The position numbers were made by a program, and so were the translations under genes. Of a stretch of 64,000 nt of DNA, positions 2,160 to 53,070 are shown piece by piece; position 1 is the stretch's first letter, and the number at the start of each line of letters is the position of its first letter. Origin of the DNA: Undaria pinnatifida (lineage: Eukaryota; Sar; Phaeophyceae; Laminariales; Alariaceae); NCBI GenBank assembly GCA_012845835.1, contig JABAKD010000035.1:186001-250000 (forward strand), given 5' to 3'. The notes beneath the pieces are model-generated. The model was not told the origin of the DNA. It was given only the letters and a program-made list of their open reading frames with translations, and searched no databases.

Positions 2160-2790
2160 ATTGGAGATAGCTGCATCTACCTCCTACAGACCGACGGGCT
2201 GCGCGCTCCCTCCTCGCCGATCCCAGGGGTCGGTTTGGGTGGTCTCGTACCCCACACCGAAAGCACTGCTTTGGGTGGGCTCGTGCCCCTCGCTGAAAGC
2301 ACTGTCTTGGGTGGGCTCGTGCCCCGTACTAAACATGCTGCCTTGGGTGGGCTGCCACTCACCTCCACCGCGTTTCACGATTTTCGCACACACGAGCCAC
2401 GAATAAGGATGGACGGCCTTTCTGCTCCCTCGGGAAGATTCATCGCTCGTGTTTCTGCCTCCGTCGCCACTAACGAAGGCTGTACCGGCCGCGGGTCGAT
2501 TTCGCCTGCCGATGACACCGTTTTCGCTTCGGTTTTTGCCATACTGACCGAGGGCGACACGGGCTCCGCAGAAGCCTCGGCTGCAGCGACGCCCATCGCA
2601 CAGCCGGCTCCTCTATCAAGGTGTTCTACACAGGAGACGGCCTTCGCCGCGACCACCTGTTCGACTGTGTCCGTCTCTGCCTTGCTTGGCACTGCCTTGC
2701 TTGGCACTCCAGCCCCTTTGTCGTCGACGACGAGCCTACGAACAGCGACAGCAACGGGTAATGCACCCCTGCTGTAGATTATGGATTTGA
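2160..2790 (+). pseudogene. G1 RNase H-integrase linker with 12-residue repeats
   Basis: An open frame (1,860-2,777) covers this part. It is Ala/Ser/Thr/Pro-rich and contains a minisatellite of period 36 bp at 2,234-2,352. The minisatellite codes for repeats of the type ALGGLVPLAEST, with three full units and one partial. It then reads DFRTHEPRIRMDGLSAPSGRF and ends at a stop before the integrase. I cannot name a domain. It sits where such elements have a variable linker between RNase H and integrase. Confidence 0.45.
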
Positions 2791-2911
2791 GCCCGGCGGG
2801 GCCCCTCGGCCATCTCCCAGACTAGGTACAACCCCGCCGCGAGTCTCACGGCCGCGGCCGGCGCCGCCCGCCGCCGCGAAACCTGCTCTTGCCGACTCGC
2901 CAGTCCGCACG

Positions 2912-3790
2912 GTGCCACTAACTACCGACAGCGACCACGCACAGCCTATGGGAACTCTTCTTTTACGGCTCACGCCTTCTCTTGGTGACACGCCAACATC
3001 ACATACAAAGTCGGACGCCCTCAGCGACGCTGCTGAACTGCGGTTCGCTGATTCCGTCGCGCGTTATCCGCACGCCGATTGGAGGCGAGAGCAGCACGCT
3101 GAGCCGACGTGCCACGCCATGATGCGTTACATCTCTATCGGTCGGCCGTCGGCCATGCCGCCCGACGTTTTGGAGTGCTACCCCTCGCACAAGCGTCCCT
3201 CCCTCTCAGACATCCAGGAGCTGGCGGGTGAGGGTCGACTACATACAACCGACGACGACATCGTCCTACTCGTCCATAACCCGACACTGCCGTCAACAAG
3301 GTCTGACAAACCCAGCTCTGTGGGTCGAGCTGTTTGCTTGCTAAACGACGGGCCAGTTGGCATCTACGTTTCCCTGCTCATGCGACCTTGGATCATGAAA
3401 GCTCGTCACTCGACGGCCTCTTGTCACCTTGGCACCACGCGCACGTTGCGCATGCTGGAGCGGTTTTATTGGTGGATTGGCATGAATATGTGCACCCGGT
3501 GGTAGCTTCGCCACTGCTTGGGGTGCCAAGCGCGGAAAACCCCACGGCTGACTGTCCGCTGGCCCATCATCTCCATGCCTCTACCGGAACATCCAGGTGC
3601 CACCGTCAGTGTTGACTACCTCGGCCCCCTCCCGGTCACTCCACGAGGCAACACCTACATACTGCTGTTCACCGATCGCTTCAGTCGTCGGGCCGACATC
3701 TTTCCCGTCACGGCAGCTGAGTTCACCGCGGAGTGTACAGCCACATGGGCAGACTCCCACGGCCCCCCCTGACGGTTTTCGACCGCACTG
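2912..3790 (+). pseudogene. G1 integrase: zinc-binding domain and start of catalytic core
   Basis: One frame (frame 2) runs across two in-frame stops (TAG 3,503-3,505 and TGA 3,770-3,772). Visible are an HHCC-type zinc-binding domain (RHSTASCHLG ... RHCLGCQARK, His residues five apart and a CxxC) and the beginning of the DDE core (VDYLGPLPV with the first catalytic Asp, then YILLFTDRFSRRADIFPV). The second Asp (SDxG region) and the catalytic Glu are not found, so the core is truncated by an internal deletion after about 3,730. Integrase would join cDNA to chromosomal DNA. This copy cannot. Confidence 0.75.
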
Positions 3791-14339: not shown

Positions 14340-15535
14340 CTGTTTGAGTATGTTTTTTTTTTCACAAAATTCATGGTCAGCTTCTGTTCCCCTCCATCCG
14401 GGTTATAAGGTATCAGTGCGCAGAATGACTACGAACCAAAATCGCCCAGTTACATGTTTCGCCTATAATAGAGCCAAAAAACGAGATGCTTCGTATTGTC
14501 GCGAGCATCACCCATACACACAGGTAAGTTCACAGCATACGTTTTTATCGTTTGCGTTGTACCAAGTGTAAGCGGGTACATGCAAATAGTACGGTAGGTA
14601 CTGCTGTATAAGAATGCTTAAAACATTGGGCACGGGGGGTTATAGTGTACAAGCGCAAGAATCGGAGCGCTTCGCGCGCCTAATTTTTTTTATTGAACTG
14701 CACCAATCGAAGACCGTACCAGGTAGAAGGTATCTACGGAGATAGTTGCATTTGTGACAGTATCAAATGGGGGAATGGCGGCTGACGTCCCAGACTCGCT
14801 GGAGTGGTAGCGGAAGTGCGGAAAGCGGAAGAGGTGGGGAAGGCGTGTCGCTCCAGCGAGCAGCATCAACAGCCTCTGTTGCCAGAGACCGTCGCTGTGA
14901 AATCAATGGCGACGTCAGCATATTATCCACGGAAACCGTAGCATTCGTGGCAGTATCAAAATAGGCGATACCGCTTTCGTCGCAGACTGGTTGAAGTGGT
15001 AGAGGAAGTACGGAAGGCGTGTCGCGTCTGCTTGCAGCATCTTATCCATAGCTTCTGGTGTTGCTGGTGACCTCTGAGAATTCGATGGGTACGTCAGCAA
15101 TTTTAAAACGGAAATCTCGGAAATACCTCAACTTTTTGGACGCCCGGGGGTTGGATGCGCCAGAAACTGACACATCTCCAACATTGATCTATCTATATTC
15201 TTGGTTGGCAAACGTAGCAAGACAAAGGCTTTCTGTTGTTTGACTGTCACTGAAGGCCTCTCTGACAATCAGTCCTGAAAAACACAGCAAACATGAAAGG
15301 GTACATATACCGGTATAGCCTCAACTGCCGGCCGACAATCGACAACTGCTACCTGGGGTACCAGGCAAGATGTGTGCCTTGCCCCGAGACGTGTATTACC
15401 TCAGCACCTGGTGGTAGAGGGTCGGAACCTAAATCGAGATCATCAATGATGCACACACGATGGTGGTAAAGCATACCACAATGACAAAACCTATACAGCA
15501 CCTGGAACCTGGTACATACATACCACTATTAATAG
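14340..15535. other. Stretch upstream of neuroguidin exon, old repeats
   Basis: No Sas10-domain exon recognised. A two-copy repeat of about 192 bp (14,745-15,060) contains gtagcattcgtggcagtatc variants, and part of it (about 90 bp around ctccagcgagtctggga) reappears on the opposite strand at 54,205-54,300. A good acceptor-like site (ctgtgtttttcag, minus strand, near 15,275) precedes a short frame of unknown meaning. Confidence 0.4.
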
Positions 15536-15539
15536 GAAT

Positions 15540-16214
15540 AAACCCCCAGCGAAGGCCCACAGTCGATAACTCCTACGCGTTGATCGTCCACCAAAGGGAA
15601 CGTCGGCACCTTTTCCTGGAGTTCGAACTCGATCCCCAACACTCAGATACATTTCGTATATCCCTGTTCGCAAACAACCTCTCTCTCCTGGCTTGTGTGG
15701 TGCGGGTCAGCTGTTACCCAGCAGTGGCAGGCAGATACCTCGAGGTAGCAGCAGCAGTACTCACTCACGTAAGAAACGACCCCTACCCACCCACCCACCG
15801 GCTAACCCGTCCACCCACCAAACAACCCAACGATCATGTGCCACAGGTGTACAGCAGTACGTACGGCAGTACGTACAGGAGAAACAGTTGTGGTATTTTG
15901 TCGGCGAACTGGAAGCGGATGTTATGCTGGTACGATTGATGTTTGTTGCTTCCTTGCTCCTTGCTGCCGAACACGGTTGTTTGTTGTGCGGCGGGTTTCT
16001 GCTGCTTCGAGAATCAAGTTTCGCTGAATTCTGTAAGCTGAATCTGCAACCACTCTAGCAATAAGTATGGTGAGACAACAGTCATTAAGCGTGATATGTA
16101 ACCCGGCGCGGCGGGACTGGGGGGTTCTCCCGAGGGGCAACTCGCCACGCGTGCCTCGTCCCCTGATTGGTTGAGGACGAGCGGGGGGGGGGCAATGATG
16201 GAGCCTCTCTGAGC
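15540..16214 (+). repeat. Dispersed repeat family B, copy 1
   Basis: Collinear with 26,480-27,240 over most of its length. Shared blocks include cgataactcctacgcgt, gaactcgatccccaacac, gtggtgcgggtcagct, a (CCCA)n tract, a gcttccttgctccttgc block, and a GC-rich tail (ggcgggactggggggttc ... ctgattggttgagg). No protein is recognisable. It is probably a non-autonomous mobile element or a fragment of one. The copy is followed directly by a second, 5'-truncated copy. Confidence 0.75.
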
Positions 16215-16364
16215 TGCTGCTGCCGCTGTGGTCTTTTGTCGGCGACCTGGAAGCGGATGTCTTGTTGGTGTGGTTGTTGTGTCGTGTGTTGCTTCCGTGC
16301 TCCTTGCTGCTGAACCCTGTTGTTGTGAGGTGAGTTTCTGCTGTTTCGATAATCAAGTTGCCCC
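16215..16364 (+). repeat. Family B copy 2, left part, interrupted by the retrotransposon
   Basis: Reads as family B (cttttgtcggcgacctggaa, gcttccgtgctccttgctg, gataatcaagttgccccg) and then stops abruptly at agtaatat. The expected continuation (acgttgaatctacaacc) is found 8.5 kb away at 24,857. Confidence 0.75.
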
Positions 16365-16365
16365 G

Positions 16366-16525
16366 AGTAATATCGTCAACCAACTTCAGGTTCCCACGGT
16401 TGGCACAAAAGTTGGAACCATATGTTTGCTACCAATTACTAGGACTGTCTGTGAAGCGAGCTCACTCGTGTTATAGTCCCCGAAATCCTCGACGAGATAC
16501 CAGCGAGGAGCGGAAAAAGCTAAGA
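16366..16525 (+). repeat. Left terminal repeat A1
   Basis: 160 bp, from agtaatatcgtcaacc to cggaaaaagctaaga. It matches A2 at 24,488-24,647 with five differences that I could count (about 97% identity) and no indels. Confidence 0.9.
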
Positions 16526-16536
16526 GGATAGACACG

Positions 16537-17318
16537 ATGCCCAGGACGCGCGCGTCGGCAGCGCCGGGCCGGGCGCCTACACCCGCTCCGACGCCCGCAC
16601 CTGGCCCTGCACCCGGGGCGTCTCCAGCGCTTTCGCCGATTTCGTCCGCTTCACCGCTGCCTCCCCCGAACCCGCGGCGCGACACGGCGGTGCGTGTGAC
16701 TCCGTGGACTCCGCTGGGCCAACTCCCGTGTTTCACGACGATTCTGGGGGCGCCCCCGACGCTAGACGTCACCAGGGTCTTCACTCCCGACAACATGAGT
16801 TGTGGGGAGGGATTCAGGCTGGAACTCGTCCTACGACTCGAACCGATCCTCACCAAGTTTGCGTCAATTCCGGGGTCGGATTTTTTTTTTTTTTGACGGT
16901 GTGCGAGGAGGCCGAGGAAAAGGCCCATAGCGCACGCGGGGTGGGGTCGGCTTCATTTCGTCGCAACGAGGCTAAGGTGATGGTGGTGGCCCATGTGGTG
17001 GACCTCCTGCGATACCACGGGGTTCTCCTCGTGTCGGATAACTGCGTGTTCTTGCACGGAGCGGTAGAGGAGGAGGCGGACCCGACGGCGCCTCCACCCA
17101 TGGCAGCAGCTGCGGCCCCGGAAAAAGGCCCGGCACAGAAGGAAAAGGGGCAGGCAGCCTGCAGTGGAGGGCTCTCCGGGGGAGAGGCCGCGGGGAATAT
17201 CAGCACACCGGAGCCCGTGGGGGACGATGGGAGCCAGGACGACCGCGACCTGGTGCACTTGGTTACGGCCCAAAGTCATGGTTCCGAGGTATGTCCTGTA
17301 CTTACAAGCCACTCGTAG
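16537..17318 (+). pseudogene. ORF1 (gag-position) protein, split at a T14 run
   Basis: An ATG 11 bp after A1 opens a frame rich in Pro/Ala (APTPAPTPAPGPAPGASP) and ending in a hydrophobic/charged segment (EGFRLELVLRLEPILTKF) at a run of 14 T (16,881-16,894). The following coding-like text (VCEEAEEKAHSARGVG, then MVVAHVVDLLRYHGVLLV and an acidic, Ala/Gly-rich tail) is in another frame and ends at 17,318. The position between left repeat and pol suggests ORF1/gag, but no zinc knuckle or capsid signature is seen. GAG/GTATGT near 17,289 is a good splice-donor match, so a captured host exon is an alternative. Confidence 0.4.
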
Positions 17319-17359
17319 AGCAGTAGGGGCGAGGCTGGTTTGCCTGACACTACACTTTT

Positions 17360-17525
17360 GAGTTAGTTCACAGGAAATTAGGGCGAGATGCACGGTTCGA
17401 ACCCATATTGATCGGGCAGCATGGAATGGACAAATTTTGTTGGTTTTGTTCGTTTATATGCATATCACTATACCTGTGAGTTGGTTCAGTGGAAGTTAGT
17501 GTGAGAATGCACGGTCCGAATCGAT
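17360..17525 (+). repeat. 117-bp tandem pair
   Basis: Two copies of a segment containing gagttrgttcasaggaarttag and atgcacggttcgaa, at about 17,360 and 17,477, moderately diverged. Confidence 0.55.
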
Positions 17526-17801
17526 AGTTCTTGGACACAGGCTGGACTACCTTTAATGTGTTATCGGCATTATCATAGCAATACTATGATAACGATAATG
17601 TCGCTATACGTCATGTGTTCCTACTCTACGCCAGGGACCCTGCCATGTTCCGGTGGCCTCCGACTCGGGAGGGTTACCATTCTGTGGTCTCGGGAGGGTT
17701 ACCAGTCTGTGGTGACCTATCGGTCGAGCGTACGTAGCGGCCACGTCTATGAATAGTGGACTACTGTATCGCACGCCGCGCGTTCTGTTTCTCTCGCGAT
17801 T

Positions 17802-18350
17802 TGCTGAAGCCTACTCGCCAGGGATGACTCTTTTGGCTGGAGTCTAGCTTCGATATGGAATGGCAAGGATAGTCCTCTGCCAGCATGAAGCCCTCAACTT
17901 CTCGCACGTGTCCAACGCGTATGGTTGGGGTGCACAACGAACCTTTTATATGTCACGAATATTCACCGAATCGGAGCTCAAATAAGACCTATGTCATAGG
18001 GCTGTATAGTATGGTATTTCTTGACAGGATCACGGCGCAGTATGGTTGCAGCTATTTGCTGAAGCCTAATGGCCGGGGATGACTCCTTTGGCGGGGGTCT
18101 AACTCAGATATGGAACGGGAACCATATTCCTTGGTCAATATGAAGACATCAACTTCTCGCGCGTGTCCAACACGTATGGTTGGGGTGCACAACAAAACTT
18201 TTCAAATCTGGGCTACAGCAATATCAGGATATATCGTGGGTGATATATATGTGATGAGTCTTCACCGAATCTACTCAAATACGACCCACCTGTACATGAA
18301 GGTATGTCGCCACATGATCACGGTGCAGTATAGTTACAGCTGTATGATAT
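17802..18350 (+). repeat. About 260-290-bp tandem duplication
   Basis: gctgaagcctactcgccagg ... caacttctcgcacgtgtcca ... tatggttggggtgcacaac ... gatcacggcgcagtatg recurs in order from 18,059 with substitutions and one indel of about 30 bp. Confidence 0.75.
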
Positions 18351-18618
18351 AGGCTGGTATATTCATATCAGGCTTGAATGTCCTCTATGGCAATTCACAA
18401 GTATTGGGTATGTATACCTGCATACCAGGTTTGAATCGCAACCGGGTGATGGATCTACCGGACATGCAGGGCTGCAGCTCGTCTACGCCCTTGCCTAGGT
18501 ACATAGTAAAGACGTGGTCCGGGTCGCACGATATTTATGAAGATTAAATATCGTTAATTCATTTCGAGTCGGACGATAATATTTATATATATAGTCATTC
18601 ATTTTGAATATTAATTGA

Positions 18619-19770
18619 TACAGTCTGGAGCTGCTAGAGGTACAGAGCTGCCATTTGGCGAATACGTTGAGGATAAGGGTTACAGGCGTGCCCGCGCCGC
18701 ACGACATTCTCGAGTTTCGCAGGCATCTCCGGCGTTGCCGGGGATACCCCCCAGCGTGACTGGTTTTTCTGGCGTTGCCAGCTATATGCAGCGCTGCTGT
18801 TTCAACGGTTGGTTTACGACGAGGTTGCGATATTCTATTTATTTCAAAGTTAATTTATTTTATTTTGATATTACTTTATACAGTCTGGCGTGGACAGCTA
18901 TATACAGCGCTGCTGTTTGGCGAGTACGCTGAGGATAAGGGCTACAGGCGTTGCCCGTGCCGCGCGATATTCTCGAGTTTCGCAGGCATCTCCGGCGTCG
19001 CCGAGATGCCCTCCAACGTGGCAAGGCTTTCTGGCGTTGCCAGCTACATGCAGCGCTGCTGTTTCGGCGGTTGGCTTACGACAAGCCTGCCACTGTCGCA
19101 CGATATATATATTTCAAAATTTCAAAATTATTTATATATTTTGAATATTTTCGTTACACCGTCTGGAGCTGCCAGAGGTACCCAGCGCTGCTGTTTGGCG
19201 AGTACGTTGAGGACGAGTGTTACAGGTGTTGCCCGTGTCGCACGATATTTTCGAGTTTCGCAGGCCTCTCCGGCGTCGCCGGGGATACCCTCCAGCGTGG
19301 CAAGGGTTCTGGCGCTGCCAGCTATATGCAGCGCTGCTGTTTCGGCGGTTGGCTTACGACGAGCCTGCCTCCGCCGCACGATATTTATTGAAATAAATAA
19401 ATAAATTTTGAATAATTGCTTTATACCGTCTGGAGCTGCTAGCGGTATACAGCGCGGCTGGTTGGCGAGTATGTTGAGGACAAGTGCTACAGGCGTTGCC
19501 CGTGCCGCACGATATTCTCGAGTTCGCAGGACTCTCCGGCGTCGCCGGGGATACCCTCCAGCGTGGCTGGTTGTTCTGGCGTTGCCACCTGTATGCAGCG
19601 CTGCTGTTTCGGCGCTCTGTTTCAACGAGACTGCCTCTACCGCAGGAGATTTATGTAAAATATAGATTTATTTATTTATTTGAATGTTACTCTATACCGC
19701 CTAGAGCTGCCAGCGGCATACAGCGCCGCTGTTTGGCGAGTACGTTCAGGTTAAGGGTTCCAGGCGCTGC
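18619..19770 (+). repeat. 268-bp satellite, four copies plus a partial fifth
   Basis: Units begin near 18,619, 18,880, 19,158, 19,425 and 19,695. Each has ccgtctggagctgccag, then ggcgagtacgttgagga, then cgcacgatattctcgagt, then cagcgctgctgtttcggcg, and an AT-rich tail of variable length. Frames run through both strands (a minus-strand TAETAALHVAGNAR pattern persists between units), but lengths differ and no start or domain is evident, so I treat it as satellite DNA. Confidence 0.85.
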
Positions 19771-20600
19771 CGGGTACACAGTTAATACATATATAGTCTA
19801 TATATAAACATGCGGCAGGTCACGAGCCGGGTGGCAGCGAAGAATCCCCTCGGCTACTGAAGCTCAAAGACACGGGCCACGATTACCTATGAATTTACGA
19901 TACGTACGCACGGTACACGACTATCCTCGGGTTATCGAGGAATCCCCTCGGTCCCTGGTTCCAAGACACCGGGTATGTCACGTCAACTCATTGTGCCCTT
20001 CCTGGGCGACGCTTGCGTGACACTTGGCTCGCCAAGAGGCCTCGTGCATTTTACTTGATTGATTTAGGTATATACCAGATTCGTATTTACGTACTTACTT
20101 ATATATATATTTATTCTATTTTATTTATTTATTTATTTCCGATTATCAGAGACACTCCAGCGACTCTTCGCACCCTTTTGCTAGCTTACACGAGAACCCG
20201 AACGCAAAGTATTCTTAGGATGCGACCGGAGTCGCGTTGCAGTTGTCTTTGTACCCGTCAGGTTTTCTCGGCGGGTCCCTGGACGCAGCATCGCTTCGAC
20301 GTTTGCTTACAGCACACGCCTACAATTTACCCTTGCTGTGTATAGTTGACTGACCTTCCAGGCGCGGTGAACCTAGGTCCGTGCAATACGGCCAGCTCGC
20401 CCCTCCTATTGCCCCCGTCACGGGGCTCCCGCGTCCATGCACCGATGTCGCAATGCGCTGGGAAGCAGGTAGTAAGAGGGGCATAGCCCTGCTCGGAACG
20501 GGTCTGCTCGGGTCGGAGCAGGCCTGATGTCCTTCCCCCTCGCTGCCCTTGTGCCACACGGTACGCACACGTCCGACCCTCTGCCTCACTGTGCAATAGG
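19771..20600. other. Spacer before pol, no gene seen
   Basis: AT-rich to about 20,150 (tatata and ttta runs), then GC-rich. No coding signal with recognisable content. 20,648 has a B-box-like ggttcgatcc, but no tRNA can be folded around it. Confidence 0.5.
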
Positions 20601-20677
20601 TCGTGACTGATGCTTAGTTCGAAGGCCTCGACCACCGCCATCGGCAGGTTCGATCCTGCTTACCTCCGCCGCCCGCT

Positions 20678-22865
20678 GTGTCGGCAGAAGAGGCCTCGTG
20701 GGCAGCCACCGGAGCGCGACTCTCCGCCCCGGACATGCCACCTGGGCTGGCCGACCTTGCCAGCGACCCTAGCGGAGCATGCCGCTTGCCGTGGCTCTCC
20801 CCGGTATGGGATGCTGGAGAAAAGGGCCGCAACTTCGTGCCGGGTTTCGTCCGTAAACAAGTGGCTTTCTGGGAGAACGTCGTCCTCGAAGACCATCCGC
20901 TCCGCGATACGTTGGTTTCGTACCTACGTGCCGGGGGGAACGTGCACGATTTCTTTTTCGACTCGCACAAGGGGCCATCTAGTGATCGTCCATACAACGT
21001 TGACCGGTTCCCGGGGGCAGTGTTTGCCAACCGTATTCCGCTGCCATTCACCGAGTTCGTGGGCATGGAGATGCAGTCGCTTATCGACCGGGGGGGGGTG
21101 GTTAAGTGGGCCGACGTGAGAAGCCCGACAAGTCCCTCACGGCCGCGCTTAGTCATGGCACTGTCAGTGGTAGAGACGAAACCGCGCCTCATATACGACG
21201 CGCGACCTCTGAACAAGTTTTGCAAGCAGGTTCTCTTCTCCATGGACACAGTGGTGCGAGTGGCAAACGTCGCATCAGAAGGGTGTTGTATGACATATCT
21301 CGATGACTTGAGCGCCTTCCACCATATTTTACTTCGTCCGTCGTCGTGGCCCCTCTTCGGTTTCACCCACCAAGGGGTCGATTACTGCTGGTGTGTTGAA
21401 CCCATGGGTGTATCATGCTTTGAGTGAGGCCAAGGCGGCGTTCATTCGCTTCAAGGGAATCCCGGCACTAGCTTACCTCGACGATTCTTGGTAGAGCAAC
21501 CACGTTGCAACGCAAGGTTTGCCGGCGCGAGATCAATGGCTGGCGGCGGGGGAGGCTACCTACATAGCCATGCTCGTTTCCTTCATGGACGGTTGCTTCT
21601 TGTCCGTCAAGAAATGCGATCTACGCCCTACACGGTTACAGCAGTACCTCGGAATCCTGTGCGACTCAGACACGGCCCCGTTCCGAGTACCGCCAGACAA
21701 ACTCGATAAGCTGCGGCAGCTTGTGACGGCGGCCCTGGATGGGGAAGGGACCTCATTTCGAACACTGCAGCGTATAGCGGGAAAATGCATGAGCATGACC
21801 GTCGCGATTCGGCCCGCATCGTTATGGACTCATGCCATGTTCTCAACACTCGCAGCTTTGGAGAAGTCCGGCCTGAGCCGGATCGACTTGACGTCGGAGG
21901 CGAGGGGGGATCTCCTCGGTGAACTCAGGCAATGGAAGGGCCTTGCATCTACGTCGCACGAGGGGCCGTGGCAGCGGGCACGCCACTTTACGGCAGCTCT
22001 CATCGAAGGAGCTTCGGACGCCTCGTCAGTCGGATGGGGGGGGGTCGTTATGTCCTTCGGGGACCCCTCCAAAGCCGGGGGGGTGTTTCCGCACGATTAG
22101 TTGAACAAACACATCAATAAGAAGGAAATGTATGCGCTATACCATCTCCTCAGGCAGGTCTGTACACGGCGCCCCGAGACTTTGCGCCGGGCTCAAATGT
22201 TGATCAATGTGGACAACTAATCGGTGGTGGGGGCGTTCAACCGGGGCCGGGCGAAAGGCCGGGAGACACATGCCATCTTGGTACAGCTGTTCGATCTACA
22301 AGTCGAGTACGGATTTATGCTGTCGCTCAAGTGGGTCCCTACCGCGGATAACGGCGTCGCGGATGCTATTTCGAGGCCATTGCGCGACTCCAGAATTCGT
22401 CTCACGTCGGAAGCCTTTCGAGCCCTCTGGGATTACTCAGGTCCGTTTAATATGGACTTGATGGCTTCCACAGCGTCCGCACAACGCGTCCCCGGTAACG
22501 CGGGGATATTACCATTTTTCTCGCAATTCCATGGCGAAGGCTCGTCCGGGGCGGACGTTTTGTCCCAAGATGTCTCCCGAGTTCCAGGCACGGGAGAATC
22601 TGCCTTTGGGTATTGCTTCCCACCACCGGGGATCGCCGGGCATATATTGCAGCATATGGCAGAGTGCAACGCGCACGCGGTAATTCTCGTCCCGGATACA
22701 AAAGCGTATTGGTTTCCGCAGGCGAAACAGGCCACGGTCCGATCTAGGGTTGTAGCCAGGAGGGATCAAAAAGGTGTATTCCAGTGGCCTAGTCAGGACG
22801 GCACCCTCAAAAAGTGGCGATACCCTAGGTGGCCCATGGTAGCATACGAGGTGGATTTCCGCTGA
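20678..22865 (+). pseudogene. pol: reverse transcriptase and RNase H
   Basis: Frame 2 from 20,678 reads PRLVMALSVVETKPRLIYDA and CMTYLDDLSAFHHI, the RT palm motif with its catalytic Asp. A short deletion near 21,400 shifts to frame 3, which continues LSEAKAAFIRFKGIPALAYL, the YLDD catalytic box, then SW and a TAG stop (21,492-21,494). The same frame continues to 22,865 through a TAG (22,098-22,100) and a TAA (22,218-22,220). It reads the RNase H acidic residues: ASDASSVGWGG (D), NKKEMYAL (E), INVDN (D), and WVPTADNGVADAISRP at its end. The order RT-RH with RH reading DAS-GWGG is typical of DIRS-like elements. It would copy element RNA to cDNA. Three stops and one frameshift disable it. Confidence 0.85.
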
Positions 22866-22997
22866 GGCTGAATGTTAATTTCCATTTCTGCGTTTTCGTA
22901 GTCTGTTGGGTGTTGGTACTGGTTTGTGCAGAGTGCCTCACGACATCTCGGGGGGGGGAGGCCGTTCTCACGGGCATCTAGCCGAGTCGGGAGCTTC

Positions 22998-24258
22998 ATG
23001 CGGCAACAGCTCTGCACCAAGTGTTACTCGTCGAACGTGCTGTAGTTTAACTTTTGTTGGCATTGCGGCAAACCTCCGTACCGTGGATCACCGGCCCCGC
23101 GGGATCCGAGGGTACCACCGGTCCAGATTGATCTGGCTAAACTGCGGGCCCATCGCGACGGGGTGCTAGCAGGTATGGCGGAACAGCCCGGGCAACAACA
23201 GAAGTGCAAGGTAGCCGATGATTTCGATGCATTCCTCCGCGCCTATTCGGCTGGGCTTCGCTGGTGGGAATCTGGGACAGATCACGATGTGTTTGCTTGG
23301 TGTTGCTACCTCGACTCACACGGGAAGGGTACCACTTGGGTGCACGACGTGTCATGCTCCAACGTTGACTCCAACACCGCCGACGACTGCCCGGCTGCTA
23401 CGAACTGCGCACAACGATATGCGGCCAATTCCCTCGACAAAGGCAAAGTATCTAAGTTGAAAATGGCCTACCGGGAGCAGCGCGGGAAGGGGGAGGGTTG
23501 GGACCCGGTTGGAAAGCTCGGTAACCTTTGCTCGAGTCAGCTGGTCGACGCCTACCTCTCATACGTTAGTGTAGAGCAGAAGCGGGTAGGAGCCCCGGTT
23601 AACCAAGCGAACCCCATGTTAGCGCACGTGTTGGCCGAGTTTCTGGAAGACATGCGATCACGGGCGCAGCTCGTGAAGTCTTTGGCTCAGCGGATTGCTA
23701 TTACTACGGACATCGCCTTGTATTCTCTAGCATTTGCTTTTATGAGGCGGGGGCACGACCTGTCCTTCACTAAAGGATCACAGTTCCTGCGCCTTCCTCA
23801 GTCTAGGAGGCTGATCTTTAACTTTCAATTTGGAAAAACGTTGAGAAAGTCTAGCGAGGCAGTCGTGGTGTTGGCGGACAACGAATGCCCTCAAATTTGT
23901 GCGTTCCGGAGGGTCACGGAATACATTTCGGCAGCGTATAGTGTCGGTTGGGACCTCGCCAAAGGACATTTGTTTCCGGTAGTTTTGCCAGGTGGGGGGC
24001 GGGGAGACGTCACGCTGGCTGCGCGGCGCATGGTCACAGCGCTGCAGGGGCACCTGCGAGCGGCCGGGCTGCCCAGCAAGTTTACAATGCATTCATTTCG
24101 CTCAGGCGGTTTTCCTGAGTAAGCCGCTGGCAGGAACCCCAATGGACGAGATCATGCACATGGGCGGCTGGAAGACGGAGAGCATGGCACGGTACTATAT
24201 CGGGTCTACCACTAGTACGAGAGTAGTAGGGGCTAAGCGGCAACGGAAGCAGGCTTGA
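22998..24258 (+). pseudogene. Tyrosine recombinase with N-terminal CxxC-CxxC ribbon
   Basis: An in-frame ATG at 22,998 starts MRQQLCTKCYSSNVL, a TAG (23,043-23,045), then FNFCWHCGKPPYRG. C6-x2-C9 and C20-x2-C23 would make a small zinc ribbon. The frame then stays open from there to 24,122. Recombinase catalytic positions readable are FMRRGHDLSF (first Arg), FGKTLRK (Lys), HSFRSGG (His-x-x-Arg), and after a frameshift at about 24,115 HMGGWKTESMARYYIG (Trp and nucleophile Tyr). The protein ends KRQRKQA at 24,258. The enzyme would integrate circular cDNA at a short core sequence. It is inactive because of one stop and one frameshift. Confidence 0.85.
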
Positions 24259-24401
24259 GCCGATGCCTCCGACTTACCACTGTCACCGGCCTTCGCGGAA
24301 GATTTTGCTGTATGTTCGCCGAAGTTCCATTTTAAGTAATGTAAGTTTGGGTGGGTTGAGGTAACATGGCTCCAGGCTGGTGGTCAGAAAAGAGAGAAGT
24401 T
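24259..24401 (+). other. 3' untranslated spacer of the YR element
   Basis: Short non-coding stretch between the YR stop and B1. No polyadenylation signal AATAAA is visible. Confidence 0.5.
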
Positions 24402-24495
24402 CAGGTGGGACCACCGGCGGGAGCAGGAAGCCTCATCCAATCCAATACTTCGATGAAATGATCGGTAACAGAGTTAAAGGATACCGCAGTAATAT
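24402..24495 (+). repeat. Internal repeat B1
   Basis: 94 bp with gcgggagcaggaagcctcat and tccaatccaatactt. It matches B2 with about five substitutions over its last 78 bp and weaker similarity at the start. Its last eight bases (agtaatat) are also the first eight bases of A2. Confidence 0.85.
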
Positions 24496-24647
24496 CGTCA
24501 ACCAACCTCAGGTTCCCACGGTTGGCACAAAAGTTGGAACCATATGTTTGCTACCAAATACTAGGACTGTCTATGAAGCGAGCTCACTCGTGTTATAGTC
24601 CCCGAAATCCTCGACGAGATATCAGCGAGGAGCGGAAAAAGTTAAGA
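24488..24647 (+). repeat. Internal repeat A2
   Basis: 160 bp, about 97% identical to A1. Together with B1 it reproduces the sequence expected if the right and left ends of the element were joined, as in a circular intermediate. Confidence 0.9.
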
Positions 24648-24761
24648 CCATCCCACCCACCCTACACTGGGTATTCTTTTAACAGTTGTGTTCATTTCCC
24701 AAATACTGCTGCGCTAAGGGCACTTCGACCGAAGCCACCCTCAGCGCGGGTGGTGTATCGA

Positions 24762-24856
24762 CAGGTGAGGACCTTCTGCGGGAGCAGGAAGCCTCATCCA
24801 ATCCAATACTTGAATGAAATGATCGGTGACAAAGTTAAAGAATACCGCAGTAATAT
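24762..24856 (+). repeat. Right terminal repeat B2
   Basis: 95 bp, homologous to B1 and ending in agtaatat at 24,856. Text to the right (acgttgaatctacaacc) belongs to family B. Confidence 0.85.
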
Positions 24857-25030
24857 ACGTTGAATCTACAACCACGTTTTTACGAATAACTATGATGATA
24901 TGATAATTTGAACGTGCTGAACCGGTGCGGAGGGACTAAAAATACAATACCTGGAATCTGGTACATAGAACTACTTAGCTTTGTATTGTTGCTGAGAGGC
25001 CTCGGTTGGTGGATCCCTGGCCTCTCAGGA
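24857..25030 (+). repeat. Family B copy 2, right part
   Basis: acgttgaatctacaacc ... gtgctgaaccggtgcggagg aligns with 26,993-27,070 of the intact copy. Similarity fades by about 24,940, after which a palindromic tacctggaatctggta occurs. Confidence 0.65.
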
Positions 25031-25118
25031 TCTCCCACTTGGACACCGCCTCCTTACATTGCTTGCTGAACGGGCCAGCGTTTTTTCTTTGATTTCCCCC
25101 TCCACCTTTTTTTTGCAG

Positions 25119-25860
25119 TTGCACGAAGTATCATCATACCAAGTCCCAGCTGAGCTCAGCTTTGATCATCATCAGCTCAGCTCCGCTCAGCACCGCAGCG
25201 CCGTGCGATGCTGTGCCCTGCCGTGCCCTGCCGTGCGGTACTATGCGGTGCTGTTTCGTGCTGTGCTGTGCTGCATGCTTTGCTGTACTTACTCTTTCGA
25301 GCATGCAGTATCATCATACTAGATCCCAGCTGAGCTCAGCTTGGCTCATCAGCTCAGCTCAGCTCAGCAGCGCAGCCCCGTGCGGTCCGTGCCCTGCCGT
25401 GCCCTGCTGTGCGGTGCAGTCCCGTGTGATGCTGTGCCGTGCTGTCACATACTGCGTTGCTGTAATTGCTCTTTCGTACACGTTAGGGCTTTTAGTTGCA
25501 CGAAGTGTCATCATATAAGGTCTCAGCAGAGCTCAGCTTGGCTTATCAGCTCAGCGCAGCGACGTGCAGAGCCGTCCAGTGCCGTTACCGGAAAGACTTT
25601 CGTGTATGCCAGGTATCACTCGAAGTGTCAAAATCATACCAGGTACCGGTACTATTAATACTGCACCAGATTTATTGGTACTGCAGCACATTGTTGAATC
25701 ACACAAAATGTACTACCCGCGCAGCTCAGCCCCGCTATGGCTCAGTAGCGAAGCGCAGCGCCGTACGGTGCCGTCCGGTGCGGTGCCGCGCCGTTTGCCC
25801 TGCGGTGCGGCGTTGTGCCGTGTTGCGCTATGCTTTTTTTTTCGAACATACAGAAGAAGG
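25119..25860 (+). repeat. 190-bp satellite, four copies
   Basis: Units start near 25,119, 25,306, 25,496 and 25,690 with cacgaagtatcatcatacc, then agctcagctcagctcag, then (ccgtgccctg)n-rich text. The high CpG/CTG content creates spurious Cys/Ala-rich open frames. Confidence 0.8.
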
Positions 25861-26479
25861 CATTATGCCAAGGAGTGCCAGGTACCAGCTACCGGTATGT
25901 ATGTGTGTACAGACTACTCGTATTTTTGCTTTCTTCATTTGATCTCTCTCTGTACTCATTACCACGTACTTTTTTTCACAAATTTTACCTATACTGCTGA
26001 TCAGAACGGGACATAGGACGCCTGCTACGATAGATGGTAGCACTTTTTCGCTTTTTTCTTCCTCAATTTCGATACTCCTTAACACAATATCGCTGGAATG
26101 TCGTGTTTTTGTTCGTTTTTTTTTCGTGTCTATACCTAGGACGCGAGATTGGCCATCGTACTGCGCATTCATTTTTCTCAAAGTCAGCGTTTTCGGTAGA
26201 GATGGGTGGGATATAGATCTTCTTAAGTGAGGAGTTCCAGAAAAAAAACGGTGCACCTCTACCATAGCGTGTGTCATCGCAAACAAGCACACAGCACAGC
26301 GCACGGCAATCAGCTCTGCACAAGTAGTTCTTGGCATTATCAAATCGCTAATAGCATCAAGTAATGGGCCTCTTCGTTCTTGCCCCTTCACCTTAAATTG
26401 CATTCTTCCTTGCTCGAGAGTAGCGGGGGGCGTCAGTCGCCCGCGGGGTGGAGCCCATGTACATACCACCAGCAAAAAT
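25861..26479. other. AT-rich stretch, no gene seen
   Basis: T-rich on the plus strand, with no recognisable coding content. The minus-strand frame 25,828-26,475 is low complexity at its end and has no family match I can see. Confidence 0.4.
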
Positions 26480-27245
26480 TATAACCCGCCAATGAACGCC
26501 CACAATGGATAACTTCTACGCGTTCTTCGCCGAAGGCAGAGGGAGCATAGTACCTTTACTTCGAGCTCAAACTCGATCCCCAGCACTCAGATACATAGGA
26601 AGTATGGTATATCCCCCTTCGGGACGTTTCCTCCAAGCAATCTCTCTCTGCTGCTCCGCGTGGTGCGGGTCAGCTATCACACAGCAGTGGGAGGCAGATA
26701 CCGCGATGTAGCCGCAGCAGTATCAGCAGCAGCATTCAAAAACGTACGAAACGATTCCCACACACACCGACTAACCCGTCCACCCACCCAATACCCAACC
26801 GCCATGTGGCAGCTGTACAACAGTGCGTACAGCAGCAAACAGCTGTGGTTCTTTCGCCGGCGAACGGGAAGCGGATTTCGTCTTGGTAAAATCGTTGTGT
26901 TATGTGTTGCTTCCTTGCTCCTTGCGGCTGAACGCTGGTGTTGTGCGATAGGCTTCTGCTGTTTGGGGAATCAAGTTGCGCCGAATTCTGCACGTTGAAT
27001 CTACAACCGCTCTACTCATGACTGTAATGAAATGATTGTCACTGAACTTGCTGAAACGGTACGACGGGACTCGAGGCTTCCCCCGAAGGGCAACTCCTCC
27101 CAGGCGTGCCTCGCCCCCTGATTGGCCGAGTGGGATGGGGGGGGGGACCTCGGCCAATGGGATTGGGGCTCGGAAACGCAGGGATGAAATCAAACTGCCT
27201 CTTATATTCCCGGGGGCGCTCCGCCGCAACGGGCTGACGCCCGCC
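26480..27245 (+). repeat. Dispersed repeat family B, copy 3 (uninterrupted)
   Basis: Collinear with copy 1, including cactcagatacatag, the (CCCA)n tract, aatcaagttgcgccgaattc, acgttgaatctacaacc and the GC-rich tail with gattggcc and ggccaatgg. It shows the uninterrupted sequence at the point where copy 2 carries the YR element. Confidence 0.8.
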
Positions 27246-29639: not shown

Positions 29640-30950
29640 CGCTGTTGGTAAGATGAGAAAGAAACACAGGCGTATGACGGATTGCCGGTTTTGGGCACGA
29701 GTGAGGGCAACTTACATTTGCCCGTGCCCGAATACGTCGTTTCTTAAGTAAAGACCTATGCGGGAGAACGTTTGACCCTGTGATATGTTGATTATGAGAG
29801 AGCCAACTCTAGGAGGGAATTGAATACGTTGAAAAATTATATTTTCGACCTACTTGGCCGTGAAACATAGTTCGAGGAATGAGCACATTTTTTTCCTCGG
29901 GTGTGAGGAGTTTTACTTGAATAACTCGCGAGTTGGGGGAAATCCCGCGGAGGGCGGCTTTCTGTCCATTCCCAAGGCCTTCAGAAAAGTTGAGGATTCC
30001 AAAGAGCACCGCTAAGGCACCGGATTCGAGGGTAAATTCGTGAGGTAGAACACCTTGAACGTTACTACTATCGAGGTGTTCTGGTGATGCAACGCCGTAC
30101 TAGGGTTTGTTTCGTCATTCATAACGGTGTCGGACCTGTAAAATGCGGCTTCGTTGCCGGGGCGCTTAGCGGCGATGACGTATTTTGATCCGCCAAGTGA
30201 GGCGTTAGTCGTAGCCAAGATGGCATTATCCTGCAGCAGCCGTGTGTCCTGATTGAGATCGGCATATACGAACTTAATATCTTGAAGCCAGTTGTGCATT
30301 GAAGGTTAAAGTGGTCTGCGATATGGTTATTATCGGAGTTAGACGGCGCGATGAGGTAGGCACCGACAGAAAAACGAGAACTAGGTTGGCGGTTTTCGCC
30401 TGCTGTTCGTACGAAGGAAGCATAGGAAGCACAATTTTTGTCTCTTTGGGAAACGGCGAGACGCATTTGGTGGACGTATTGCCATAAGTCGCTCGATATG
30501 AAAGCAGCATCAACAGTGTCCGACGATGAGCCGAACTCGACAACAGGCCCAATCTGCCTCCAATCCCAACTAAACGAAAATAGTTTCCCCGCCAAGGACG
30601 GGGAAATTGCGCATAAAATCACGTAGAGTAATGACGAGGGCTTCGATGCAAAAGTTGTGAGTCATTGGTAATTCATCGAAGATAATGAGACATTTTTTTT
30701 CTCATGCGCTCAGCCCGTTGGGAATCGTTTCTGATGTTACACACAGCTCCAGGTACAACGTTTTCGTGAAGACGAAATTCGAACATGGCACGGGCGGTCC
30801 ATCTACCAGGAAGCTGGAGGGCGGCAATGCCTGTCGATGCCACAGGTAACACAGTCACACCTTCATATCGTAAACGTGAGGCTATGGCCTTTTTCTGTTC
30901 CCAGTCCCAGCTTGCACCAGCGCTGGTGCATCGATCACGACAGGCCGTGT
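29640..30950 (-). pseudogene. Helitron PIF1-like helicase remnant
   Basis: Motif I position reads AGTGNRKRP instead of GTGKS/T, followed by VLPVASTGIAALQLPGRWTA. Walker B is IIFDELPMTHNF (DEAPM in relatives). WDWRQIGPVVEFGSSSD corresponds to GDFRQ. Then LQDNAILATTNASL, EGLGNGQKAALRG, NVLIPRTMF and INISQGQTFSRIG...FGHGQM then a stop and VALTRA. The helicase would unwind donor DNA. Loss of the Walker A lysine motif and stops make it dead. Confidence 0.85.
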
Positions 30951-31892
30951 ATGTCCGCTCCTAGCGGCGTTAATAACGGTAGTGTAAATGTGATATTAAT
31001 CGGAAGCGAGCAGAGGTTCGTATTAGTCAGTAAAAAGTGCTCCGTTGGCTTGTTTAAATGAAGATTTTATTCGCTCGAAATTGGCTTGTCGGTGTTTAAC
31101 GGGAGGAATACTGAGCTGATCGTTCGTTTTACCATGGAGTTGAAGCTTGAGCTTAATTTGGCGGCGCAACGCTTCTTGTATGGCCTCATCTCTACCGAGT
31201 CGAAGGCAGAGGTATTCGATGAGGATGTCTTGGTAATCATGTCATCGTTTGGGAGTTGACCGCCCCGCTGAAATAAGGGTTGCAACCAGACCTCGTAGCT
31301 CGTGTGGCATTTGGAAAGCACAAGCTTCTTCCATGCATATAGAGTACTCCTCGTGGCCCGTGCCGAGAGCCAAGGTTCTCGCGGTGCCATGAAATGGGGG
31401 GTATGCCATCGGTGTTTGTTGCGGGGAGGTGGTTGTACGCAATTCGAGGAAAGATCTAGCGGCAGTTTTACTGGGGAGCCGGAGATAAAATAGATCACCA
31501 ACGGCTGGAGATTGGAAATTACGGTGGCAGACGTGGGGCAACGCTCGTTGAGAAACGGTGTTTCCGTAAGTGTCCAAAAAATTTCGGGGGTGCGGAGTAG
31601 AAGGGGCAGGGGCGTCATTTCTTGTTTTAATAATGATGTAAGTTTCGAAGTAGTCAAGTAGTGTACGAGATGAGAATTTTTCATGTCTTGGTCTCTCCAA
31701 GTATCTCATAAGAGCTAAAATAGCAGTTTTCGCTAATTGTTGGCGTTCATCAATTGATTGTTGCTGGAAAAACGACGTTGTTGTCGCCCTCAACGCGTAC
31801 GTGAACGAGAGAAACTGCAGGTGTACGGTTGAGATTGCTAAAGCAGTACGCTTCAGCCCCTGATACATACCTTGTCTTTCGATATTGGTCAA
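30880..31892 (-). pseudogene. Helitron central region
   Basis: Reads MRYLERPRHEKFSSRTLLDY then FETYIIIKTRNDAPAP, and AVGDLFYLRLPSKTAARSF then EEYSICMEEACAFQMPHELR. All are typical of the region between Rep and helicase in Helitron proteins. Frame changes lie near 31,245 and 30,960. Confidence 0.75.
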
Positions 31893-31939
31893 TTTCGCTG
31901 GTTATTCCGGATATCCTTGCCTCCATCCTGTCAGCGCCG

Positions 31940-32670
31940 TTAATTACGTGTCAAAGAGGTATTTTACACAAGACGCAGCGGTAACGATGCCAACGCATAT
32001 ATGACAGCTGTATTTTAGAAGGAGATATGGGTTGTAGGGGACAATCCATTGTTTGCCGATTTCGACGTCTTTGAATACTCCCTCACCTTTTTCGCGAAAT
32101 GTCAGGTTGTCATGTTATCTGTTTATTTGTATTCTGCGCGGCCTGCGTTCCCATTTTGCGGACGCGGTCGTTCTGAATAGTTGAGGGTAGTATAAATTAC
32201 AGAATTTTACGCCAGCTAGTTTCCATGCACGGAGAGTTGACGTCATGTGCTCCGCAAGGCCAATGGACCATGAACTTGAACACCTTCTCACGAAGGCATC
32301 CGTTTGCTATGGACTCAGAAGGAAGTTGGGCACACATCCAGAATCTAATTCGTTGAGTGTGTCCGGACCATCGCCCTTGAATTTGATAACGATATGCGAA
32401 TGTGGGAGTCCTCGTTTTTGGAATTCGATGAAAGACATGTGGTAGTCGTACCGTCCGAAGACTTCACCGCTTTTAATACCTGCCGATATTTCGGCAAGTT
32501 CGGGTTAAAAACACGATAACATAAAGCCGGGCGATCAGATGTCGCTTGATGCGGTTTTAGGTTGTCGGCAATTTCTGGGCATTGAAGATTCCAAGTAAGT
32601 GCAATCATGAGGTGGGGCTTTCCTCGAAGGTTAACAACGGCGAGTGCATGTCATATATGGCTGGTAGTAC
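31940..32670 (-). pseudogene. Helitron Rep (HUH) domain remnant
   Basis: Minus-strand frames read HLMIALTWNLQCPEIADNL and DRPALCYRVF (start of Rep), then in another frame FIEFQKRGLPHSHIVIKF, the HUH motif (H-S-H). FKFMVHWPCGAHDVNSPCM and IVPYNPYLLLKYSCHI follow. The downstream catalytic-tyrosine region reads CVKYLFDT then a stop. In relatives the pattern is Y-x-x-K-Y, so only one Tyr remains. Rep would nick DNA to start rolling-circle transposition. Confidence 0.8.
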
Positions 32671-42097: not shown

Positions 42098-42123
42098 TCC
42101 TGGAGCGCTTGTAAGAGGTCGGG

Positions 42124-43080
42124 TTGTACGCTGCGGCTCACAAGTGCACCTTCTTCGAGACTAGCATCACCTGGTGCGGGAAGGTGTACTCGCAGGGGCA
42201 AGTCAAGCACGATCCTGAGCGGTTGACGGGCTTGGCAACCATGAGGCGGCCTGAGACTGCGGCCGAGTTGATGCAGTTCTTGCAGGCTGTTAATTGGCTG
42301 CGTACGTCTTTGCCGCGCATGGCAGAGGTTGTTTATCCTCTTCGTGTCTTCCTGGAGGAGCATCTGGCGGGTGCCAAGCGTCGCACCAAACGTGTGGCAT
42401 CAAACCGGGTGATCTCGGCTGGGGACTGGACCTCGAGGTTGATCGGGGCCTGGGAGGCCGCGCAGGATCTTGTCGCTCACGCTGTGGCTTTGTCTTACCC
42501 GAAACCGGGATGGGCGGTGCTCATGTTTCAGGATGCCTCCGATGAGCATTGGGGGAGGTTTCTCACGCAGGTGCCGCAGGAAGAGCTCGACCGCGGCGTT
42601 TCAGTCGAGGACATGACTCACGAGCCTCTTGGATTCCAGAGTGGGACCTTCAAAGTGTCACAGCAGCGCTGGACGACGGTAGACAAAGAAGGCTTCGTCA
42701 TGGTGAGTACCTCCAAGCAGTTGGAGTACCTCTTGTGGAACGGCGTGCACACTTATACTGACCACCGGGATTTGGGGTACATTTTTGATCCGTAGGCGTG
42801 GGTGTCGTCTGTTGCGAACACGACGGCGCAGCGTTTGGACCAGTGGAAGGCGGTATTGGGGCAATACGACAATACCATTGTGCACATCGCCGGAGATCGT
42901 AACTGCTGGGGGGACTTGCTCTCGCGGTGGGTGACTGTCCGTTCGGTGAGTGTTCGCGCTACCGCGGTGTACGCTGCTGGCGCGCCAGATGAAACTCTTC
43001 CGTCCAAGCAGGTGATCCGGGACGCGCAGCAATCGTCGCGGCCAAACCTGAGCAGCTCGCGTCGAGGGCTACGTCGTTCA
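42124..43080 (+). pseudogene. G2 RT thumb and RNase H; RT catalytic core deleted
   Basis: The frame starts directly in the RT connection (AAAHKCTFFETSITWCGKVY, then ELMQFLQAVNWLRTSLPRM). No palm YxDD exists between it and the protease, only 26 bp, so about 300 codons are missing. RNase H residues are readable: LMFQDASDEHWG (D), TVDKEGFVMVST (E), TYTDHRDLGYIF (D), with HIAGDRNCWGDLLSRW closing the domain after a TAG at 42,793-42,795. Confidence 0.8.
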
Positions 43081-44100
43081 TGACGAACGTTGGTCAAGTG
43101 AGCTTGGATGCCAAGGGACTTTTTCGGCTCCCGGTTAATGGGCGCGCGGTGTTGTGGATTCCAGGAGGAGCTAAGCAGCTTCAGGTACTGGTTAATGGTT
43201 TGTGCACACATGAAGGAGGCTGGCCATCGGGGTGCCGTGGCTATTCTGCACCGGCTGTCGGAATACTCCTGTTGGTTTTCCATGGAGGAGCACTTAGCCG
43301 AGTTTATCAAGCAGTGTCTTCATTGCATGGATTCCAAAGCAGGGGAGAAAATGCCACGTCCGCTTGGGGAGACGGTGCACGGCACCAGGCCGGGCGAAGT
43401 GGTCCACTTCGACCATCTCCATGTTGGTGCGAGCCGGCCGTTGGGATACGATGGCCTGGATGAGGACGGGGGGTACCGATACATCCTCGTCATGATGGGC
43501 GATATGAGTAATTGGGTTTGGCTTGAGCCCACAGAAGCATGCACTGCTCGTTTAACAGCGCAGCATCTCCTGACCTGGTGTAAGATTAATGGGGTTCCGG
43601 AGATGTGGGTGAGTGACACTGCTTCCCATTTCAAGAATCAAATGATGGCTGCGTTAGAGGAGTGTCTTGGTGTTGACAGGAGGTTTTCAGTTGCGAATTC
43701 GCCTTGGTCTAATGGTACATGCGAACGAATGATGCGTAAGGTGGTGCTTACTCTGAAGGCCATGAATCATGAAGAGCAACGGATCGCCCAGGATTGGGTA
43801 GAGTTAGTACCGGCGATTAAGTGGGCCTTGAACACTGCGTTTCGCGAAAGGAACGGCTCTACCCCGTATCATGTCATGCTCGGCAGAGTACCTCGCGTAG
43901 CGTTGTCCACGTTGGCGTCGTCGACCGGACAGGATTGGCAGGTGGATGTGCTGGACGAGAAGGCTCTTCGGGCGAAGGTGCAGAGCGTGGTTGCGGCGCA
44001 GAGTCAGCTGCACAAGGAGGTCTTGGAAAAGGTGCAGGTGAATCGTGGTAAGCAGCGTGCGGCCGCGAGTCGGGGAAGTTTGCCGATATTTTTATGTTGA
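43080..44100 (+). CDS. G2 integrase, long open frame with DD35E
   Basis: The frame 43,108-44,100 is open for 330 codons. Zinc-binding HHCC: CAHMKEAGHRGA and KQCLHCMDSKAG. Catalytic core: VVHFDHLHVG (D), MWVSDTASHFKN (D), NGTCERMM (E), with 35 residues between the second Asp and Glu by my count. A leading piece (LFRLPVNGRAVLWIPGGAKQ) is in the adjacent frame from 43,080, so the N-terminus has a frameshift near 43,190. Integrase joins element cDNA to host DNA. The core could fold, but no upstream polyprotein is intact. Confidence 0.85.
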
Positions 44101-52760: not shown

Positions 52761-53070
52761 ATCTATACGGGTGCTACCGGTGTCTTCCTCTTCGCCTGGC
52801 GACGCCCCCGGGATTTCACGTTACCCGCATCCCGAAATGGAACCTTGTACAATACATATAATTATTTTATTTTATTTTATTCGTTTTATAATACAAGAGA
52901 CATTTGGCTTTCATCCCTGCGTTTTCCGAGCCCCAATATCATTGGCCGAGGGTCCCCTCCCCCCGCCCACCTTAGGCCAATCGAAGCGCGAGGCGCGCGC
53001 GGCGGGAGTTGCCCCGCGAGACAACCCCCCCCCCAGTCCCGCCGCACCAGGCGAGAATAGGGCCCCATCC
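52761..53070 (-). repeat. Family A end joined to family B GC-rich tail
   Basis: cgacgcccccgggatttcac ... cgaaatggaaccttgtac is the reverse complement of the family A border at 48,570-48,640. From 52,905 (ggctttcatccctgcgtttt, ccgagccccaatatcattgg) the text is the reverse complement of the family B tail at 27,060-27,200. Confidence 0.65.

Follow-up and report, generated by a model that had tools for sequence, protein, structure and literature searches.

What kind of mobile element occupies 16366-24856 in a 64,000-nt stretch of the Undaria pinnatifida genome (contig JABAKD010000035.1, positions 186,001 to 250,000; the whole stretch is referred to as the window, and all coordinates are those of the window), where exactly does it end, and how could it have entered its present site? 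A first-pass annotation, made from the letters of the DNA, had proposed a retrotransposon that combines a tyrosine recombinase with split direct repeats; the repeats, the matches of the recombinase to ALOG and Phage_integrase models, and the homology of pol to a relative all bear this out. The element is very probably a retrotransposon of the DIRS order with a recombinase of the ALOG type and split direct repeats in the style of PAT and Ngaro, which inserted into a dispersed host repeat and has since decayed.

Split direct repeats share an 8-nt sequence

Self-comparison of the window delimited an element of 8,491 bp with two pairs of direct repeats, which follow each other in the order A1 ... 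B1-A2-(121 nt)-B2 and all have the same orientation (Table 1). A1 and A2 are identical at 155 of 160 positions without gaps, the length and the five mismatches being as predicted. B1 and B2 agree at 80 of 88 positions, with eight mismatches and without gaps; the earlier figure of about 95 bp thus described a real pair, but that length is reached only if one 1-nt gap is allowed at the left edge of B (judged by eye). The predicted contiguity of B1 and A2 with an 8-bp overlap is also present, the overlap being AGTAATAT. This 8-mer is found again at the start of A1 (16366) and at the end of B2 (24849-24856), and the only other copy in the window is at 18868, on the opposite strand and within a tandem array. 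The order of the repeats in the first-pass annotation likewise stands, except that A2 and B2 are not contiguous, the 121 nt between them having gone unstated. In 20 shuffles of 15501-25600 that kept two-base blocks together, self-matches with at least 90% identity were no longer than 12-21 nt, which excludes repeats of this length arising by chance. No inverted repeats of at least 30 nt (exact seed 12) were found in 15500-25600, and therefore the ends are not inverted as in DIRS1; an inverted comparison of the left with the right end of the element gave only one 9-nt match (E 2.8).

Table 1. Positions of the element, its parts and the interrupted host repeat in the window.
Feature	Position	Strand	Basis or remark
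Left half of interrupted host repeat	16225-16365		80.3% identical to 26842-26983 over 142 columns
A1, left terminal direct repeat	16366-16525	+	Begins with AGTAATAT; left edge coincides with the break in the host repeat
5´ open reading frame (ORF) remnant, putative Gag region	16537-17318	+	ORFs 16477-16896 and 16524-17318; proline-rich start
Unassigned region of ~3.3 kb between 5´ ORF and pol	17319-20600		Holds 278-bp tandem array and 152-bp pair; ORFs up to 214 amino acids (aa)
pol: reverse transcriptase, RNase H, conserved C-terminal domain	20618-22865	+	Homology to contig L001; frames and stops
Tyrosine recombinase: CxxC...CxxC, ALOG DNA-binding domain, catalytic domain	22998-24258	+	Pfam, motifs, frames
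B1, internal copy of right repeat	24408-24495	+	Match to B2
B1/A2 overlap AGTAATAT, proposed crossover core	24488-24495	+	Also at both outer ends
A2, internal copy of left repeat	24488-24647	+	Match to A1
A2-B2 spacer, 121 nt	24648-24768		No second match within the window
B2, right terminal repeat	24769-24856	+	Ends with AGTAATAT; right edge is the point where the host repeat resumes
Right half of interrupted host repeat	24857-24937		74.7% identical to 26992-27071 over 83 columns

The ends are fixed by uninterrupted copies of the host repeat

Besides the matches given in Table 1, the left flank resembles a neighbouring copy of the host repeat (16227-16359 against 15889-16020, 79.6%), the right half of which was located by multiple alignment and not by BLAST. 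When the two flanks were joined and AGTAATAT was kept once, 33 nt on the left and 17 nt on the right aligned without gaps to both uninterrupted copies, in which the joint is exactly 8 nt long, AATTCTGC in one and AATTCTGT in the other. This alignment fixes the ends of the element, the left one at the opening base of A1 and the right one at the closing base of B2, and does so without recourse to a further copy of the element. The host repeat is dispersed over 26842-27071, 15889-16140, 16225-16365 together with 24857-24937, and 52955-53051; a longer related similarity joins 15517-16191 and 26460-27146 (70.7%).

The element encodes an ALOG-type recombinase and a reverse transcriptase

The recombinase region has an ALOG domain (PF04852, E 4.2e-6; 27.4 bits, cut-off 26.6) N-terminal to the catalytic domain, and a match to Phage_integrase (PF00589, E 0.0062, profile positions 106-169 of 172) that falls below the curated cut-off. 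The motifs HSFR and GGWKTESMARYY, spread over two frames, are presumably the catalytic HxxR and Tyr motifs of a tyrosine recombinase. Toward the N-terminus, at 23013, a CxxC...CxxC pattern was recognized at the level of the pattern only, with a stop codon inside it. The recombinase is broken by a stop at 23043 and by a frame break near 24110-24120. Sequence comparison with the PDB returned only unrelated chains (0.57 for the ORF and 1.6 for the read-through), and a single-sequence structure model, with a mean predicted local distance difference test score (pLDDT) of 35.4, was too poor to use.

The pol region is divided between two frames, with a break at ~21404-21424 and in-frame stops at 21492, 22098 and 22218. 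Its sole relative among bacterial and archaeal genome contigs is a 3,015-bp contig (L001) entered under a Rickettsiales metagenome-assembled genome (MAG), probably a eukaryotic contamination of that bin. None of the viral contigs searched gave a relative with a locus, one relative being reported without a locus, and the phage records searched gave none. The open pol frame of the MAG contig (857-3013, 719 aa) runs to the contig end, and the pol pieces from the window are 58% (153/266) and 66% (293/444) identical to it. That frame matches the Pfam model RVT_1 (PF00078, E 6.6e-7, just over the curated cut-off), finds reverse transcriptase (RT) chains in the PDB (best E 5.4e-5), and shows RNase H weakly (RVT_3, E 0.17). 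We therefore accept the pol of the window as an RT through its homology to a frame that matches RVT_1. When the pol of the window was read through, with X at the breaks, it matched PDB chain 7ksf_A (Protease/RT/RNase H; E 0.016) over a stretch that includes a Y-x-DD motif; we take this chain to be from a foamy virus. The first pol piece alone gave an unrelated E3 ligase as its best chain (0.016), with the RT of 7ksf_A only at 0.52, below unrelated chains. After RNase H, ~120 aa are comparable and conserved between the two pol sequences. The methylase of DIRS and PAT elements is located after RNase H, and by position only this third domain is a candidate for it.

The 5´ ORF shifts frame at a T run near 16880, and neither of its two pieces matched a Pfam model; its label as a putative Gag comes from its position. 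Between this ORF and pol lie a tandem array (18601-19771, 4.4 copies of a 278-bp unit) and a 152-bp repeat pair (17796-17947 and 18051-18202), and 20228-20300 resembles 362-437 of the MAG contig (71% over 76, E 1e-4). We also noted by eye, close to where the 5´ ORF ends, a splice-donor-like GAG/GTATGT (17286-17294), so that part of the sequence ahead of pol might be an intron.

Points against the assignment and alternative explanations

Several observations weigh against the assignment given above. Compared with AGTAATAT, the 8-nt joints of the two uninterrupted host copies have mismatches at 5/8 and 4/8 positions, against 6 and 9 mismatches in the 50 nt beside them. A single copy of the element was seen, so its ends lack a second insertion as confirmation. 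Inverted-repeat arms around the AGTAATAT core did not exceed shuffled controls, the best arms at three AGTAATAT sites being equalled in 203, 299 and 90 of 300 shuffles. The pol pieces of the window, alone or read through, match no Pfam RT model, and searches with the third pol domain gave no methylase model, only unrelated models or chains at chance level. Finally, none of the element's six reading frames contains the CCHC pattern of a Gag zinc knuckle, which may have been lost through decay of the broken 5´ ORF.

The presence of an identical 8-mer at both ends of the element could also be read as a target site duplication made by this insertion. When AGTAATAT is counted once the site has the length of the uninterrupted copies, but a duplication would give the same length, and it is the third AGTAATAT, inside the element at the B1-A2 junction, that provides the main argument for rejecting a duplication, which we regard as very unlikely. 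Could the two repeat pairs instead have separate origins, the 160-bp direct repeats belonging to a long-terminal-repeat-like or other element and the B repeats to an unrelated local duplication? B is more diverged (8/88) than A (5/160), a difference that is not significant (Fisher p 0.07). Against such a composite, B1 abuts A2 through the very 8-mer that also ends B2 and starts A1, the right edge of B2 coincides exactly with the resumption of the host repeat, and the models matched by the enzyme are ALOG and phage integrase, with no match to a DDE integrase model among the element pieces searched; we consider a composite highly improbable.

A classification as Ngaro rather than as an ALOG/PAT-type element is unlikely. 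PAT elements combine split direct repeats with a methylase domain, whereas Ngaro and Viper have such repeats without the methylase (PMC4157794), and the internal repeats of Ngaro are likewise downstream of the recombinase (PMC4157794). A C-terminal pol domain without a match to any methylase model would suit Ngaro. Against it stand the ALOG domain of the recombinase, since outside streptophytes ALOG domains map to DIRS1-like elements (PMC3537659), and the conserved ~120 aa after RNase H, which stand where the methylase of DIRS and PAT elements would be expected. A different kind of alternative concerns how the stops are read: if the host code read TAA and TAG as Gln, the in-frame TAG and TAA codons would be sense and the copy would be less broken than it appears. 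The three pol stops and the stop at 23043 are indeed all TAG or TAA, translation table 6 opens 517 aa of pol, and the TGA that closes the first pol frame falls after the frame break. The MAG contig, however, has three different residues at the three pol stops, just one of them glutamine (23043 is without a relative for comparison), and the frame breaks persist under any genetic code. An altered code was rejected because only one of the three positions is glutamine, and we give it scarcely any credence; decay fits the pol stops better because the relative has three different residues there.

We thus return to an ALOG-type DIRS element with split direct repeats. In structure this copy is complete, but as assembled it is dead, with pol and recombinase both broken. 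Assembly errors could account for some of the frame breaks. The term full-length member, used in the first-pass annotation, is apt for the complete ends and structure and not for a working element.

A proposed route of insertion

The observed repeat order, the identity of the three 8-mers, the exact boundaries, and the homology of RT and recombinase suggest a route by way of an RNA, a circle and a crossover, which extends the DIRS1 circle model to split repeats. As in the model for the DIRS order, the RNA of the element would be incomplete at its ends. If later mutations are disregarded, the internal B1-A2 is identical in sequence to a junction at which B2 meets A1, and reverse transcription could use it to close a circle with one B-AGTAATAT-A junction. 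The recombinase would then recombine the circle junction with the target, presumably by a crossover inside AGTAATAT, leaving AGTAATAT at both ends.

In the integration model for DIRS1, the circle junction recombines with an identical target and no duplication results (PMC3266345). A recombinase with a strict need for identity would require AGTAATAT in the target beforehand, and two copies cannot tell whether this site had one; as neither uninterrupted copy has AGTAATAT at the joint, they give no evidence of an identical core already in place at the target. Because these copies carry other 8-mers, whereas the element has AGTAATAT at either end, a second possibility arises, namely that the ALOG DIRS class is truly a class with split direct repeats and that its recombinase accepts targets unlike the 8-bp junction of the circle. 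We raise this combination tentatively and regard it as rather doubtful.

Comparison with known elements

The closest description is that of an ALOG-containing DIRS1-type retroposon of Ectocarpus, which is over 9 kb long with 159-bp direct repeats (Iyer and Aravind, 2012; PMC3537659). The resemblance to this element is in keeping with a stramenopile host. The same paper reports that the ALOG domains found outside streptophytes tend to accompany an inactive adenine methylase, and that ALOG-type elements are also present in several marine animals (PMC3537659). Both the Ectocarpus element and the one described here have RT-RNase H upstream and a recombinase composed of an N-terminal cysteine motif, ALOG and the catalytic domain, and both carry extra sequence in the 5´ part (PMC3537659). 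They are also close in repeat length (159 bp against 160) and in size (little over 9 kb against 8.5 kb). The cysteine motif of the Ectocarpus element is an FCS-type zinc ribbon (PMC3537659), while here we recognize the CxxC...CxxC pattern only. In the available text, and compared by description only, terminal direct repeats are mentioned for the Ectocarpus element, the word split is absent and B repeats are unmentioned (PMC3537659). Its Gag has a Zn-knuckle, and because no knuckle was found here, we file the present element as of the type of the Ectocarpus retroposon and not as the same family. It is a known kind of element, not a new one. Among the matches listed in the open literature, without supplements, split repeats in ALOG-type elements did not come to our notice in any title or in the opening of any abstract, which is not a claim that they are unpublished.

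With PAT (Pat1 of the echinoderm form, and Toc3; PMC4157794) the element shares A1-B1-A2-B2 split repeats and a recombinase and pol on the same strand; its internal repeats lie downstream of the recombinase. It differs in that ALOG is present, which the available text leaves unmentioned for PAT (PMC4157794), and in that the methylase that defines DIRS and PAT elements is here a candidate only. The Ngaro elements of the stramenopile Cafeteria burkhardae have the same arrangement, A1-[ORFs]-B1A2B2, but are typically ~6 kb (PMC8547959) and, as Ngaro, are without the methylase. Copies of VIPER in T. cruzi and C. fasciculata also show A1 ... B1-A2-B2, although VIPER is described from kinetoplastids (PMC6681497) and is likewise without a methylase. 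DIRS1-like elements share the RT and the tyrosine recombinase (PMC3266345), whereas the terminal repeats of DIRS1 are inverted and accompanied by an internal complementary region (PMC3266345), and no inverted repeats were found here. The view in the first-pass annotation that such elements are little described in stramenopiles does not hold, given the 15 Ngaro and five PAT-like families of a 2025 Ectocarpus survey (PMC12477816), the ALOG DIRS element of 2012 and the Cafeteria Ngaro.

Other features in the window

A Gypsy-type element, identified by its domains, lies at 42115-44097 in broken frames, with matches to models of RNase H (PF17917/PF17919, E ~8e-9) and of integrase (PF17921 at 4.9e-7 and, below its cut-off, rve at 1.8e-6), and a second integrase remnant was found at 2762-3502 (PF17921, 3.3e-6). 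On the minus strand, 30400-32534 holds a frame with FQKRGLPHSHI and DELPM motifs and many stops, which we take to resemble a Helitron Rep/helicase. No RNA families or tRNAs were found within the window. Four pieces searched against PHROGs gave no match, and NCBIfam gave only two unrelated matches on the same pieces (0.1 and 0.21).

Significance

This copy offers ends that are exact to the base, an uninterrupted version of the landing site nearby, and an explicit candidate for the crossover sequence. With it, the circular-junction model of split-repeat elements can be put to the test in the ALOG-type DIRS group, which in the available text of its description was reported with terminal direct repeats only (PMC3537659).

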